Part shown: positions 48,635 through 56,530 of the stretch, piece by piece | How positions within the stretch are numbered: the stretch's first letter is position 1 | Layout of the letters: the number at the start of each line of letters is the position of its first letter | From: Amyelois transitella | Lineage: Eukaryota > Arthropoda > Insecta > Lepidoptera > Pyralidae | Direction: 5' to 3' | NCBI RefSeq assembly: GCF_032362555.1 | Contig: NC_083536.1 | Span: 9,982,001-10,046,000, forward strand | DNA length: 64,000 nt | The notes under the pieces: model-generated | What the model saw: the letters and a program-made list of their open reading frames with translations, nothing else | Told to the model about the DNA's origin: nothing | The model's database searches: none | Translations under genes and position numbers: made by a program

Positions 48635-49737
48635 TCATGTAGTGTTGGAGGCGGGCGCCAATGTGCGCCTTACGATGTCACGCCATTTCTCCCTGATGGA
48701 AGTCATCCTGCTGCACTCGTTAAGTGAACCGCCAATGACAGACTTTATTTGGTCGGTCCATCGCATGGGTGACACTTTACCCTGGACAACAAGCCGTTCT
48801 ATGGATCGGTTGCCTCTCCTTGTAACGTGTCCAAAGAATGACAAAATGCGAGATTGTACTAAGGGAAATAGTCGCTGCTTAATACCGAGCTCTTGGAGTA
48901 TCGAGACGTTAGTGCGGAACTCTGTCCAAGACACACCAAGCATTCTCCTCCAGCACCACATCTCTAGGGCGTCTATCTTTTTTCTTTCCACTTCTCGCAA
49001 TGTCCACGTTTCAGCAGCATACAAAAATATGGGGAAAATAAGCGTGCGCACCAGTCTGGTCTTTGTGGTCTTAGTGATGCTACGATTCCTCCATACTTTT
49101 CTCATTCTGTCCATTGCCGATCTTGTGATTGCCATTCGTCGCTTTATCTCGTCGATACATCCACCGTTATTCGAAATCAGAGCGCCAAGGTAAGTGTACG
49201 ATTGGACCACGTCACAGTTCGCGATTCTAGTTACTTCTGGCGAATTACTGTTAGCGCGATCCACAACCATCATCTTCGTCTTGCTGCGATTTATTTTCAG
49301 ACCGAACTCGAGGCCAACACGTTCCATTTTCTGAAGTAGATCTTCCATGTGTTGGGTACTAGTTGCAAAGAGAGTGGTGTCATCAGCATAACGTAGATTG
49401 GCAATTTTGTATCCACCAATTTTCACACCGTCTGTCCAATCCTCTAGAGTGATGCGCATTATTAACTCAGTGTATACATTGAACAAGAGCGGTGATATTA
49501 TGCATCCCTGGCGTACTCCGGTACTAGGGCGAAAGTTTCCTGACAAGACGTCTTCTGTGCGCACAGAGGCTGTTCCATCCTCGTATAGCCGTCTTAAAAG
49601 GTGGACTAGATGTAAAGGCGTGCCCATTTGCAATAGTGTGTCCCATAACACAGGCCATTTCACCGAGTCAAATGCTTTTGAGAAGTCCGCTTTTTCGATG
49701 ATCTGGCGAACAATCAAAATCTGTTCCCGAGTTAGAT
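48635..49737 (-). pseudogene. RTE-B reverse transcriptase core and C-terminus
   Basis: From the T junction: REQILIVRQIIEKADFSKAF, FDSVKWPVLWDTLLQMGTP (palm Asp), GVRQGCIISPLLFN, IANLRYADDTTLF (catalytic YADD), GLKINRSKTKMMVVD and SYTYLGALISNNGG, then the C-terminal IFLYAAETWTL, RRMLGVSWTEFRTNVSIL and ILSFFGHVTRRG. No stop within the 360 codons. The RT fingers preceding this block are only partly present beyond T, and about 20 codons (the QAGF region) are missing at the junction. Confidence 0.92.
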
Positions 49738-49759
49738 AGGTGGGTGGATTTCAACAAGT

Positions 49760-50040
49760 GATTTTTTTTTGTCATTTCGGTGAGATTTTTTATTTCAATG
49801 CTATTCTACAATTTTTTGATAATAAATAAAACTTTAAGCTATTTTATAACATATGCGTGAATGGTCATCAAATATCATCGAAACTTGCAGATATATTTAA
49901 GGTTGAATTTTTAAGTGTCCACTGAAATGATAAGTATCCATCGAAATGATAATAAAAGCCCACCGAAATGAAAATTACCCACCGAAATGATTTAAATGTG
50001 CACCGAAATGAAATAAACCCACTGAAATGATACGGCTAAG
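49760..50040. repeat. Subterminal repeat cluster, left end of element T
   Basis: The motif CCACYGAAATGATA and variants occurs at about 49767 (inverted), 49917, 49938, 49961, 49980, 49999 and 50019, spaced roughly 20 bp apart in the last five. Such arrays usually bind the transposase. Confidence 0.85.
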
Positions 50041-50349
50041 AACAACCGTGCTGCGGAACAAGGGTTCCGTAATATTTTAAGTTCGGTTTTCATATTCTTA
50101 GTTAAAGAAGATACAGTTAGTTGTTGTTATAATATCTTTCTTTGAGACTATTCTCATTGTTTCTTTACTCAAATAACTGTGACTAATTTTAGGCACGTTT
50201 AATTTTTTTTAAAGTCATTTTAGTAACTGTGATATTTTTAGTAAATAATGAAGTTTGCTATAATTAAGCTTCTTAGATTTTATTACACACTTAGTTACCT
50301 ACAGCTCGACCATAATAAAAGCGTGCTAATATTTATTTTACTACCTGCA

Positions 50350-50730
50350 TTAAGGCGTTGTGGCAAGCAAAACTAGTGCTGCCAATGAAAAAAAATAATA
50401 TGTCAGTAACTAGTACGAATATCAAAAATGTACAACACCCGAACACTAAAGTATTATAATCATATTATGCATTGTTTTTTAGAAATAATAAGAAAACTTT
50501 GTTTCATTGTGTTGAGAAACAAAAAGCATTATTGCTAAAAGCGGCCGTTTTTTCCTTTGATGAAAACTGTTGCTCAAAACAATGACATACAGTTTTCCTA
50601 GTATGTTTAAAAAATAAAGCGCGTATTAATTTAGTATTCGGGTGTTGTACATTTTTGATATTCATTACTTACTGAGATATGATTTTTTTTTTCATTGGTG
50701 GCGCTAGTTTTGCTTGCCACAGCGCCTTAA
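50350..50730. mobile_element. MITE with about 100-bp terminal inverted repeats and TTAA flanks
   Basis: Body 50354-50726 (373 bp) between TTAA at 50350-50353 and 50727-50730. Each end begins GGCGYTGTGGCAAGCAAAAC and the arms match for about 100 bp (ATATCAAAAATGTACAACAC near the inner end). There is no coding capacity. TTAA duplications suggest mobilisation by a piggyBac- or Kolobok-type transposase. It is inserted in the non-coding left part of element T. Confidence 0.88.
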
Positions 50731-51606
50731 CACCAAAATATGGAGCAGGTAAAGAACTTCGTTTAGGTATAAAAATGTTATAAGAAGTTAAAATTAAAAA
50801 AAAAACAGAAAGGTTACACACTGGAGAGTTCATCGAATTAACAGTTTCTTTACGGAATAAGGCAGATACGTACCCTCGTGACTCTTAACCCGGTCAAATG
50901 TAGCAAGTAGTTAAAGGTGATAAGTGGGATTTAGTATTTTATAAGTAAAACTTCTATATTAAACAAATCAACTCTTATATTTTTTGATAAGAAACATTAT
51001 AAAACATCTAATTATATCAGACGAGCTAAGTACTTTAAAACCCTTTTAATTGAGATCACGTTATCTTAAATCACTAATAACAATACAGTATAGTATCTAA
51101 TAAAAAAAAAGGAATGCAGTTTTTTTCTGCCTAAATACTTATTATTGCAAACTATAAGCCTTAATAAAACAGTATTTTTAAGTAGGTACGTAGATGTAAC
51201 TTATGTCTCTAATTCGCTAATCAGCCTCTTTTTATGACTTTAAATATGTATATATTGGTTCTTAACTAGATATATAGTAAACAAATGTTTTTTTTTTTAT
51301 TATCACATGATAACACTTCTTCATTATAATTAAGTATACTATAATTCTCCATTAGTTTAACTTACTACTTAATAGGAACATAGCAAATATCACAAGTATA
51401 AATATTCACGCACGAATGATCCAATGGGTTGCTACAAGTTTTACCACACTTTAAGAAAGATAGCCCACACATTAGCAAGCTTGTATTTAAGTGGGAATAT
51501 GCATTTGAAATCAGGCTCATTCGTGCATTAAACAAGTCGAGTACTTAAAAAAACAAAAAACGAAACCAACGAATAACTACTTACTTTAAAAAATCAAATC
51601 AACAGT
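50731..51606. other. Non-coding left part of element T
   Basis: AT-rich sequence downstream of the T gene. No frame, no repeat beyond simple A/T runs. It probably holds the 3' UTR and polyadenylation signal of the minus-strand gene. Confidence 0.6.
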
Positions 51607-54540
51607 TCAATCAAAAATATTCAAATCTGAAGTCGATGAAGACGATGATAATCTTTTTACTGGTCTCCTCTTGACTTTAGTTTTGATTTCCTGTTCACTG
51701 TCACTGTTACTTTGTTCATACTTTTCAAGTAATGCAGTATCAGGGTTATCAAAAAATGAACACGAGGGAGTGTTGAATTCAATGAAGTTTTCATACTTTT
51801 CCAGTAGTGATTTGGGGATCATTGATGATTCCTGTCCAGTTTCTTCTTTTTGATTATTCATTCCAACGGGAGATTTGGATGTTGAGGGCTTAAGAACTGA
51901 TATGTCAATGTTTTGGATCGAGTGTATTGATAGTTCAGTTATAATACTACTTCTTTTCTTTGGATGTTTCTTTTCTTTGGATGGTTTGGGACGTAGTACC
52001 AACTTCTCTGTTAGTTGTATTGGACGCAGCTGTGCCATATTTGTAGTATTTACAAAAGTAGGTAATTGAGTCTCAGTTAAATCATGAAAACCTAAATGTT
52101 TGCCGTGAGGGCACATTACGATTTTATTTAGGCATTCTCTTTCAACACAGGATAGATGACGAAGTGCCAAACGGTTCCCCGACTCTTTAGACCAAACCAC
52201 TTGGTGAACTTTCATAGTTCCCGCAAACGTTTTCAAGTCTTTGGGCAAAAGCCAGTCTTTTTCTGTTATTTGATAATCTTCAACTACTTCGATTTTCACG
52301 CCTTGAACAAAAGACTTTAAGTTTTGTACTAGTACTTCAATATTGGTAATATCATGTTGATATGCGACCTGTTTATCCAGCGTTCTCTTTAACACCCCAC
52401 CCACTCCGTCTGCTGCGCTTTTTCCATGGCCGCACTCGCAATAGTTCCATACTATGTGGGTCAGCATTGGACAATAGGAAGACAGTTGTGATATTATGTA
52501 TAATATCTTTTTATTCCGGTATTGGGCAGACGGAGAGTCAGAAATAATGTAAAGATTGCGGACTAGAGGCGCAGTTATTTCAATTTCACGCAAAATAGGA
52601 ACAAGATGCGCCCAGACTGCTGCAGCATCATGCCTTAATGATGTACTTACAGTACAAAAAGATTGAGTTTTGCAAGTTTCATTGTTCAGTTTAAAATAAA
52701 TTACAGCAGTGTGTAACGTAAATTGTTTTCTGCTGCCACCAAAATGAAGAGACTGAATTTCGGATCCATATTTAGTGGTATAATTTTCACTAAAATCTAT
52801 TTGTATAATGCAGTCTTCTGTAGTCATATTTTCTTTTAAAGTCTTAAAAGCTTGGTTTTGGTTTTTATTATTAAGGCAATGTTGAAGGAATGCTTTCAGG
52901 CTGTTTTCAAATTTTTTAATCAGATCTAGAGGTTTTACCCAGTGTCTTACCTTTTCAACTTTAATAGCAGATTTCTCTACACTATTTTTGGTGTATGTAC
53001 TTTTGTTCTTCTCCCAATTCCAATACGTTACGTGTACTCCATTATCAAACTCTTGGTAATCAATGAGTCTACTTTTACAGTTCGAGCATGTTCTTTGCAG
53101 ACAATCGATGTTATCTTTACTACAACATAGGCTGTTTAAAACGTCGGATATTGTGTTTTCTTTGATCAGGCGATTTCTTTTCATCGATTCAATCAAAAGT
53201 TTCATATTTTCATGCTTTTCACATAAACATGTGTTTCGTGCATTCACATTTGGTTGAATAATCCAGAAAGGTTTCAGTCTTGAAAATGTTGAATAGCTTA
53301 TCGGTGGTTCGCCTGATTTTAGATATTTCAAGTGTAAATTTTTAAGTGTGTCTGTCATTAGTCTCTTTTGTTTTTTTAAGCCATGTCTTGATATAGTGTC
53401 ATTTTTGCCAGGACAAATTGTTGAATTTTCATCGTCTTCTAAAAATGTTACAACCCTCGTGAGATATTGTTTTTTTTTCTTATCAGATTTAATAACTACT
53501 TCTGTTTTTTTTTCTACTTTTTGCGTATTTTTTTTCAAATTTATATAACTGCTTTGTAGTCTATTACACCTTTTTTTGAGCATTTCTTTTTCCCGAGAGA
53601 CCTGTAATAATTTATTTTGTAATTCTGTTATTAGCTTATTTTTAGTTCTTTGATATATGCGGAATTTATCTTTAAGCGCTCGCCTTAATTCTACAGATGT
53701 AATTGACGATTCTGACACAGGGCTGTTGGGGCAAAGTGTTGACTCAATACTACTCAGATTTGATGGAGATGGTATTCGTTGTGCGCTACTTGGTAGTACA
53801 CAAGGAGTGGTAGTTACTACGTTGTCGTAAATATGATGTTGAACATCGGAACTGACGGAACTATCACTGTTCATCCGCAAGCAGCGCCGTATCATGCTGC
53901 AACGAGTAGGTCTTAGAGATGAAGATGGGTAGTCTTGTCGTGAAGTACTTGGACCAGGATTATTATTGTCTACAAAATTTCGATGCCTTGAGAGCGGGGT
54001 TTGTCGTGGACTGCTTGTGTATATAGGACGAGAGGTTGTAGTCGCTGTATGTTGAGGTTGGATATTCGTACTGATGCTACTTCTACTGTTCAATCGTAAG
54101 CTGTGCCTCAAAGTATTGCAACGGGCAGGTCTTGCAGTCGAAGAAGGTGAATCTTGACAGGAAGTGCTGAGTCCAGGATTATTAATATCCTCACCAATTT
54201 GATTTGTTGAAGATTGTTCTGGATGATCTTGAACTGTTCCAACTAGAGAGTTTGCACGAGTAGCCGTAGGAGCCGTAGTGGCTCTTTTTTTTTTTCTTTG
54301 GTAATAAGCGGCAGCACTTATGTTGTTTCTTCTTCTTAAGTTTCTTAATTTGGTCTTGTTCATTTGATGCCTTGAAACAATTAATCCTGCTGCTTTCTTT
54401 CTTGCATATCTTTCTCTATCTTTTTTCAGAAACTCTTCGCGTGTCTCTGCATTGCTCTTTATTCTTTCTTTTCTCCTTCTTTCGTACAACCTTCTTTTTT
54501 CTAACCTTTCTTCTCTAGTCTGTGTTCTTGGCCGAGGCAT
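51607..54540 (-). CDS. Putative transposase of element T, 977 aa, superfamily not recognised
   Basis: A single intact frame. Residues 1-90 are strongly basic (EKRRLYERRRKERIKS, LRNLRRRNN), likely DNA binding or nuclear localisation. Residues 90-280 are a Ser/Pro/Thr-rich linker; 284-345 a coiled coil; 438-490 a Cys/His cluster (C438, C440, H443, C472, C473, C480, C485, C488), probably zinc-binding. Residues about 575-715 look like an RNase H-fold catalytic domain: IQIDFSENY (D582), YIISDSPSAQYRN (D668) and GHGKSAADGVGG (D711) as candidate triad. The tail (840-977) is basic and acidic low complexity. Just before the ATG the minus strand reads TTTCTTTTTATTTTAG, a good 3' splice acceptor, so a 5' non-coding exon is likely. 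I recall similar unnamed proteins with the same DFxENY and HGKxxxDGVGG motifs in insects and cnidarians. Confidence 0.8.
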   Translation of the reverse strand: MPRPRTQTREERLEKRRLYERRRKERIKSNAETREEFLKKDRERYARKKAAGLIVSRHQMNKTKLRNLRRRNNISAAAYYQRKKKRATTAPTATRANSLVGTVQDHPEQSSTNQIGEDINNPGLSTSCQDSPSSTARPARCNTLRHSLRLNSRSSISTNIQPQHTATTTSRPIYTSSPRQTPLSRHRNFVDNNNPGPSTSRQDYPSSSLRPTRCSMIRRCLRMNSDSSVSSDVQHHIYDNVVTTTPCVLPSSAQRIPSPSNLSSIESTLCPNSPVSESSITSVELRRALKDKFRIYQRTKNKLITELQNKLLQVSREKEMLKKRCNRLQSSYINLKKNTQKVEKKTEVVIKSDKKKKQYLTRVVTFLEDDENSTICPGKNDTISRHGLKKQKRLMTDTLKNLHLKYLKSGEPPISYSTFSRLKPFWIIQPNVNARNTCLCEKHENMKLLIESMKRNRLIKENTISDVLNSLCCSKDNIDCLQRTCSNCKSRLIDYQEFDNGVHVTYWNWEKNKSTYTKNSVEKSAIKVEKVRHWVKPLDLIKKFENSLKAFLQHCLNNKNQNQAFKTLKENMTTEDCIIQIDFSENYTTKYGSEIQSLHFGGSRKQFTLHTAVIYFKLNNETCKTQSFCTVSTSLRHDAAAVWAHLVPILREIEITAPLVRNLYIISDSPSAQYRNKKILYIISQLSSYCPMLTHIVWNYCECGHGKSAADGVGGVLKRTLDKQVAYQHDITNIEVLVQNLKSFVQGVKIEVVEDYQITEKDWLLPKDLKTFAGTMKVHQVVWSKESGNRLALRHLSCVERECLNKIVMCPHGKHLGFHDLTETQLPTFVNTTNMAQLRPIQLTEKLVLRPKPSKEKKHPKKRSSIITELSIHSIQNIDISVLKPSTSKSPVGMNNQKEETGQESSMIPKSLLEKYENFIEFNTPSCSFFDNPDTALLEKYEQSNSDSEQEIKTKVKRRPVKRLSSSSSTSDLNIFD

Positions 54541-55722
54541 CCTAAAATAAAAAGAAACACAGTTCCTTTTTACTTACTTTCACACACAAAAACATATACA
54601 CGCTGTACATACCTAGTTTCCCTAATATACCTTCAAATATACCATGCATTTACATTAGCTCTCTCGCAATGGAGAAGTTCAATGATGTTAAAAATACAAC
54701 ATCATAAAATTAAAATATATGTAGATCTGAACTAATCAATAAACTGATCTAATGAGTGTTTTTTTTTTTAAAATTCATCAATATAGGTATGATTGATATA
54801 TGGATTATAAAAGATTGTGTTTTTTCGCGAAACGACTACCTACCTACACATAAAAGTATCTAGCAAGGTAAGTTTAAAAAAATATCTCGAGGATCTCTAA
54901 AACTTTTAACGGATTTATCATTTCGGAGATACATTTCATTCCGGTGGACTGTTATCAGTATTACAGTCCACCGAATCCGCTGAAATGATAACACTGAGAT
55001 GATAAAACAGATGTCAATTTGACAATAACTCTGAAATAATGTCTGTATCAAAATTTCAAAACTATTTAAACAAAACCATACTTACAGCGTATTTAATGCA
55101 CAATTTTGAAATAAATCAAATTAATGTAACACAAGTTATAACAGCTACCGAAATGAAATTTTTTTTGACCCCATATCACAGAAATGATACACTTACTTTT
55201 TTGGCGGGAAATCACAACACGTTGTAACGCGTGCATAGGCGCCGAGAGCTCAAGCCGGACTAATCTGAGGCGAGGAAAGGTAAGGGGGGCGCAACAACGC
55301 AATATTGACGGAGTTTTACTGCTAAAACTTAATGTCCTTTGAAATGATAATTTTTTTCGGGACAAAAGTTGAATGCCTGTCAAATCTATGAGAAGGAAGA
55401 TAAACAAACAAAAATAGTTTTTGTTGATAGGAAATACATTATTAAATGAAACTAAAATCGATTTCAATCCAAAAAAAATATCGTATTTGCAGGATAAGAT
55501 ATTTTATGAGCAAAATTGGGTGCGGGACAGGTCACCGTCATGATAAAGTGACACTTTGTCATTTTTTTTGGCATGTAATAGATGCCGTAACTCGATGATT
55601 TTTTTTGCCATGGTAGAGGAGTACAAACTTCATTAAGGAAAAATATGAAAAATCATAAAGCACCATTCCTCACTACCGTTTTCACGTTTGCCGTGTAATT
55701 CTTGTGCTTGCGCAATTCACCC
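54541..55722. other. 5' flank and right end of element T
   Basis: Non-coding. It includes the right subterminal repeat cluster (about 54905-55340), an inverted pair CCGGTGGACTG / CAGTCCACCG near 54941-54970, and T-rich stretches. The upstream exon and promoter of the transposase gene should lie here. A 124-codon frame at 55093-55467 (-) has no recognisable feature. Confidence 0.6.
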
Positions 55723-55726
55723 AGGT

Positions 55727-56530
55727 ATGTTTTGAGACGATCGTTAAGGATATGTAACAAAATTTTGCTGGCGTGTGGTATCAAAGCAATAAGGCGGTAG
55801 TTGTTACATTTCTTTGTGGAACCTTTCTTGTGTAAGGGGGTAAATATGGTGTGAGTCCATTCATCGGGCCAATTTCCCGTCCGCCATACTTCATTACAGA
55901 TGGCGTGAAAAATTTCATCACCATACTCTCCTAGAGCTTTTATGGTTTCTATGGGAATGGCATCTCTTCCAGTGGCTTTCCCGTTTTTGAGATGTTTTAT
56001 TGCAGCTCTAACCTCAGACAGGAGAATGTCCGGTCCAGATCCTCAGTATTAGGGACAGTACTCGGGAAATCGCGTCAGTGCGGGTCCTGGAATAACGACT
56101 GACAGTAGCCTTTCCATGTTTCGGAGATTTCAACCAGTTCTGTTACCACACGATTATCGCTGTTTTCTATAGCCCAGGTTTTAGATGGTAAGGTTTTAGT
56201 GATAACCCGAATTTTGTGGTACATGTCTTTCGATTCGTGTCTTCCAGCATGAGACTCGATTTCGTGACAGATGGCATGACGGTAGTTGTTGTGGTCTCGT
56301 CTACATGCTGCTTGGACTTCAGCAGACAGTTTGTTAATAGTCCTCATGTCTGCTCCCTGAGCTTTCTTCCGACGTCTCTCTTCAACAAGAGCAAGAGTAC
56401 CTTAGGTCATCCAGTGTTGCCGCTTGTGCGCCTTTGATTGCGTTTTAGACTCTGTTGCTGCCTGCTGGATAAGCTGTTTGGCCTTTTCCCACATGACGTT
56501 TGGGTTTGGCGTACCGCGTTTTGTTTCTAG
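55727..56530 (-). pseudogene. RTE-B linker and RT N-terminus
   Basis: Minus strand: MRTINKLSAEVQAACRRDHNN, ISETWKGYCQSLFQDPH, then after a shift near 56070 the RT start (EVRAAIKHLKNGKATGRDAIP, WPDEWTHTIFTPLHKKGS, CNNYRLIALIPHASKILLHI), ending ILNDRLKTYL at element T. The frame is broken in two or three places. Confidence 0.85.

Follow-up and report, generated by a model that had tools for sequence, protein, structure and literature searches.

Element T of Amyelois transitella, an intact and very recently active DNA transposon that probably belongs to Sola

Introduction

To which superfamily does element T, a 5981-bp insertion in the genome of the lepidopteran Amyelois transitella (Pyralidae), belong, and has it moved recently? 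The element lies in a stretch of 64,000 nucleotides (hereafter, the window) from contig NC_083536.1 of the RefSeq assembly GCF_032362555.1 (forward strand, positions 9,982,001 to 10,046,000), and carries a single gene for a transposase-like protein of 977 amino acids. An earlier note, made from the letters of this DNA, regarded it as a recently mobile autonomous transposon, possibly Sola-like or of an unnamed group. Comparison of its genomic copies, its protein relatives and the published descriptions of transposon superfamilies suggests that element T is probably an intact, very recently active autonomous Sola DNA transposon, most likely of the Sola2 type, Sola being represented in this comparison by descriptions only.

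The founding papers are reportedly those of Bao et al. 2009, on Sola, and of Yuan and Wessler 2011. According to a published description, Sola elements encode a DDD transposase, produce 4-bp target-site duplications, measure mostly 2-9 kb and vary greatly in their ends (11-1124 bp); they are also stated to occur in bacteria (PMC10741241). Sola2-type elements of the slime moulds Dictyostelium fasciculatum and Polysphondylium pallidum are described with an 888-amino-acid transposase, inverted ends of 12-21 bp and AT-rich 4-bp duplications, e.g., ATAT and ATTT (PMC3627910).

Boundaries, copies and recent mobility of element T

The insertion is present as the earlier note had placed it, with AGGT duplicated on both sides and inverted GGGTGRATT termini, the left and right ends agreeing at 8 of their 9 positions and at 9 of the first 12 (Table 1). 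In the source genome (327 Mb, 33 contigs), where the protein has at least 49 matches, five copies including that of the window contain the full, stop-free frame of 977 amino acids; they are on contigs 1, 8, 27, 28 and 32 (the window being on 32). Aligned with the window copy over its whole length of 5981 bp, one of the others shows no substitution and two show 1 each. The remaining full-frame copy differs from the window copy by 1-2 substitutions (2 in a gapped alignment) and has lost a net 43 bp outside the gene. Of two further copies, one (3377 bp) is derived by internal deletion, and the other is truncated and has only the left end. Because near-identical intact copies are found on five contigs, the recent mobility proposed for element T is well supported, and the intact gene suggests that the element is apparently autonomous.

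Six of these copies are two-ended and share the same ends, and all six have exact 4-bp duplications, each different from the others (AGGT, TTAT, TTCT, AATT, ACCT and ATCA); alignment of the copies revealed neither other ends nor another duplication length. These six different duplications fix the duplication length at 4 bp and argue against segmental duplication. The near-identity of the copies could in itself reflect segmental duplication or assembly artefacts rather than recent transposition, but no two of the six two-ended copies share a contig, their alignments all end exactly at the same termini and each has a distinct duplication of its own, so that such an origin is hardly credible and, for those six, essentially refuted.

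A query with the 160-bp left end detected at least 8 places in the source genome, 7 of them at 100% identity and one, partial, at 80%, and the element T family therefore looks small and young. A palindromic non-autonomous element nested in element T (Table 1) recurs letter for letter in each of the six further copies retrieved (L021-L026), indicating that element T spread later than the insertion of the nested element.

The repeated subterminal motifs reported for the element also proved real. With at most one mismatch, CACCGAAATGA occurs 12 times in element T, namely 7 times in the first 300 bp, 4 times in the last 900 bp and once in the gene, so that 11 of the 12 sites are near the ends; the remaining 58 kb of the window contains 1 site, and the mean over 30 block shuffles is 0.07.

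The target of the insertion is an RTE-like long interspersed nuclear element (LINE; 48635-49741 and 55727-56347) that appears damaged where element T inserted or close by, and LINE-like motifs directly before and directly after the junction are in different reading frames. As the LINE copy is damaged there, its reading frame provides no test of the insertion site.

Conserved features of the transposase

The uninterrupted gene and the motifs DFSENY, SDSPSAQY and HGKSAADGVGG were all found as described before, and the D-D-D triad suggested for the protein is kept across its relatives. Among 217 relatives, all picked by family similarity and with 211-213 ungapped in the three key columns, D582 is conserved in 211/211, D668 in 213/213 and D711 in 212/213. 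The contexts of the triad are near-invariant (DxSEN, DxPxxQY and HGKxxxDGxGxxxK), as are six cysteines ahead of the core. Other conserved acidic residues in the core are E702 (197/213), D722 (210/213) and D730 (207/212). E702 is disfavoured as the third catalytic residue because it is absent in 16 of 213 relatives, versus one for D711.

A crude, averaged Chou-Fasman profile places a strand right before D582, two strands after it and a mixed helix at about residues 639-654, followed by two further strands, one preceding D668 and one at residues 694-699, and by a helix from about residue 718. This predicted order of strands and helices would be compatible with a DDE/RNase H-like core.

Database scans gave no match above the curated cut-offs in Pfam (the element T protein and sets of 39 and 11 family members) or NCBIfam (five proteins), and the catalytic core was unmatched among PDB sequences, for which the best E-value of a core-only profile was only 0.32 (haemoglobin). 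The 39-member Pfam scan at E-values up to 1 yielded 38 weak families, 25 of which were listed, with a best E-value of 0.011 and no more than two members matching each; these include PF05638 (matched by the element T protein itself), RT_RNaseH_2 (0.049) and Zn_Tnp_IS91 (0.065), and all were treated as chance matches. One PDB match, of profile A2 to TFIID subunit 3, passed the usual threshold (E-value 0.00048), and weaker ones were to huntingtin and coiled-coil proteins. All of these matches are confined to profile positions 4-230 of 854, i.e., to the basic and coiled-coil N-terminal part outside the core, and were ascribed to composition.

Distribution of the protein family

The initial profile (A1) detected only 14 proteins, versus 666 for the core profile (A3); a first search gave 132, and 120 relatives were listed from that search and 120 from the A3 search. 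Named relatives among the matches listed come from moths, butterflies, beetles, bugs, a planthopper, molluscs, fish and a starfish, with one filed under a Wolbachia assembly, and the labels of these matches are 'uncharacterized', 'hypothetical', 'unnamed' and, once, an automatic 'DUF659', with no transposase name. The protein filed as Wolbachia pipientis (P0138; metagenome-assembled, 3.4-kb contig) probably represents DNA of the insect host that was binned with bacterial sequence. Motif-based scans resulted in 33 pattern matches in viral contigs (IMG/VR) and 58 in prokaryotes (one genome per GTDB species), with zero confirmed relatives in either set.

In a tree of 31 named proteins hand-picked from the 217, the window protein pairs with HW555_009047 of Spodoptera exigua (support 100/99). 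This is the nearest named protein, with 88% identity over the core (448 columns), but it is annotated as hypothetical only and is known here from the protein alone. Proteins of Loxostege sticticalis (P0006) and Helicoverpa armigera (P0007) form another pair (support 100/99), with 79% identity over 815 amino acids. These species are moths from different families, and the resemblance of their proteins hints at horizontal transfer between Loxostege and Helicoverpa.

Related elements in the same genome

Ends were resolved for 14 of 18 related-family loci (those left out being L034, L040, L042 and L041, the last of which extends beyond the stretch retrieved), and all 14 elements have exact 4-bp duplications: ATAT at five, and TTTG, TATT, TTAA (at L029), AGAT, ATTA, AGGT, AGTT, ATTT and TTGA at one each. 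Their lengths are 4.0-5.2 kb and their ends begin with GRGT, or with GGGC in one family; in four related loci the inverted ends match at 12 of 12 positions. When element T and its relatives are pooled, 12 of 20 duplications begin with A and end with T (ANNT).

For three families, those of L029, L030 and L031, the ends were set by the end-finding rule alone, with no second copy. Applied to 24 loci, this rule gave matches of at least 9 of 12 positions at 19, of at least 10 at 9 and of 12 at 4; the corresponding numbers for a control of 552 mixed halves were 70, 23 and 15, values that are raised by some mixed pairs joining copies of one family. Two of the 19 top matches (L025 and L040) look spurious, and the true end of L025 ties with its top match.

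A related element of another family (L042; G000:C32:10055400-10061400), with a 907-amino-acid frame, has its core match starting about 11.6 kb past the end of the window. L042 and L041 (contig 14) are 99.98% identical over 5180 bp, and both contain an imperfect repeat of about 105 bp.

Superfamily assignment

Several features of element T are those described for Sola. Three acidic residues, which are presumably catalytic, are conserved; the duplications are of 4 bp at 6/6 two-ended copies and at 14/18 related loci; and the lengths of element T and of the 14 related elements are within 2-9 kb. Likeness to Sola2 extends to the short inverted ends, to the presence of one transposase of about 900 amino acids and, in the genomic relatives of element T, to frequent insertion at ATAT. 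Sola2 termini are described as GRG. The resemblance to Sola raised in the earlier note holds for the triad, duplication length and size, with reservations as to the inverted ends, of about 9 bp, and the duplications, which are mostly not AWWT.

Other observations weigh against placement in Sola. Some Sola2 elements are described with an AWWT pattern, which five of the six element T duplications do not follow, AATT being the exception, and which 6/14 duplications of the related elements fit (five ATAT and one ATTT); element T itself is not AWWT-specific. The inverted ends are shorter than the 11-bp minimum quoted for Sola, and no Fanzor-type second gene was seen in element T, a further difference from Sola2. 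Bacterial Sola elements are described, yet the GTDB motif scan (one genome per species) confirmed no relative, and the 120 relatives listed, of 666, include no amoebozoan. D722 and D730, towards the end of the core, are almost as constant as D711. Finally, the sequence collections searched yielded no labelled Sola sequence; element T is likened to Sola through published descriptions, and for this reason membership is put forward as probable. A profile-convergence rule with E < 0.005 has been described for superfamily membership (PMC4455052).

The silence of Pfam, NCBIfam and the catalytic-core PDB searches above cut-off, the 666 relatives with no transposase name among the matches listed, and the short ends and weak AWWT fit of element T might also point to an undescribed, animal-wide D-D-D superfamily, with insects, molluscs, starfish and fish among its hosts, that would be Sola-like only in duplication length and triad. 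Its hallmarks would be the DxSEN...DxPxxQY...HGKxxxDGxGxxxK signature, the pre-core Cys cluster, GRG[T/C] ends and ANNT-biased 4-bp duplications, and element T would be a recently active member. This is rather unlikely, as the broad Sola features tested are present or nearly so, and as a family so common in these animals would hardly have escaped Repbase. Moreover, we know of no Pfam model for Sola, so that the silence of Pfam is to be expected. A new superfamily for element T is possible, and the evidence does not need one.

Membership in another long-described superfamily (Kolobok, piggyBac, Chapaev/CMC, Ginger or Academ) is very improbable. Duplications of 4 bp are described for Kolobok and piggyBac, at TTAA, and duplications of 4 or 5 bp for Ginger; Chapaev makes 4-bp or similar duplications. 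Kolobok further resembles element T in its DDD/E transposase and is described with 5'-RR termini, as in element T, but it is TTAA-specific, and TTAA is present in 0/6 duplications of element T and in 1/14 of the related elements. The ends of Ginger and Chapaev are TGT or CAC, in contrast to GGGT in element T. The Gypsy-type integrase of Ginger is likewise missing from the Pfam results, since no integrase matched the element T protein at E-values up to 10 and none is among the families listed for the 39- and 11-member scans. In none of the profile scans did a confident match to such a superfamily appear, including the 39- and 11-member sets, for which no Pfam match was above cut-off. Membership of element T in Sola remains the favoured assignment.

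Proposed mechanism of transposition

The single-exon gene would be expressed as the 977-amino-acid transposase, the basic and Cys-rich regions of which may bind to both the CACCGAAATGA repeats near the ends and the GGGTGRATT termini. Using two metal ions, the putative RNase H-like core that contains D582, D668 and D711 would then excise the element, which would be joined to target cuts staggered by 4 bp, and repair would produce the 4-bp duplication. Cut-and-paste chemistry is suggested by the conserved triad together with the duplications, and ordinary cut-and-paste would be the simplest account of the movement of element T, although the element may instead move in a replicative (copy-out) manner.

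Table 1. Positions of element T and its component features in the window.
Feature	Position	Strand	Remark
Element T, complete DNA transposon, 5981 bp	49742..55722	- (transposase gene strand)	Boundaries shared by all six two-ended copies
Left target-site duplication AGGT	49738..49741	.	
Right target-site duplication AGGT	55723..55726	.	
Left terminal inverted repeat GGGTGGATT	49742..49750	+	
Right terminal inverted repeat GGGTGAATT	55714..55722	-	
Left subterminal CACCGAAATGA-like repeats, 7 sites (at most 1 mismatch)	49772..50030	.	Presumed transposase binding sites
Right subterminal CACCGAAATGA-like repeats, 4 sites (at most 1 mismatch)	54918..55187	.	Presumed transposase binding sites
Nested palindromic non-autonomous element, 381 bp, TTAA-flanked, ends GGCG, inside element T	50350..50730	.	
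Transposase gene, 977 codons, single exon, no internal stop	51607..54540	-	Frame complete in five copies in the source genome
Presumed catalytic core, residues 575-735, with D582, D668 and D711	52336..52818	-	From conservation and crude secondary structure
Cys cluster C438, C440, C473, C480, C485, C488, presumed zinc binding	53077..53229	-	99-100% conserved; putative role
Basic N-terminal region, residues 1-90, presumed DNA binding	54271..54540	-	Putative role, from sequence

Implications

Element T is most likely a new member of the already described, little studied Sola group. No biochemical study of a Sola transposase was found in the literature searched by titles and abstract openings, a search not made for that question alone, and no solved structure matches the catalytic core of the element T family in PDB sequence searches. 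The near-identical intact copies with known ends are a ready substrate for testing the cutting and joining of DNA by the D-D-D core. The family placement, once settled, would provide a name for hundreds of animal proteins that are now uncharacterised; if the superfamily is instead an undescribed one, element T would be a recently active member of an animal-wide D-D-D group. Insertions of moth Sola elements in the AcMNPV baculovirus genome have been reported (PMC4735498; PMC6983493), and such insertions suggest a possible tie between the activity of these elements and their spread among moths.

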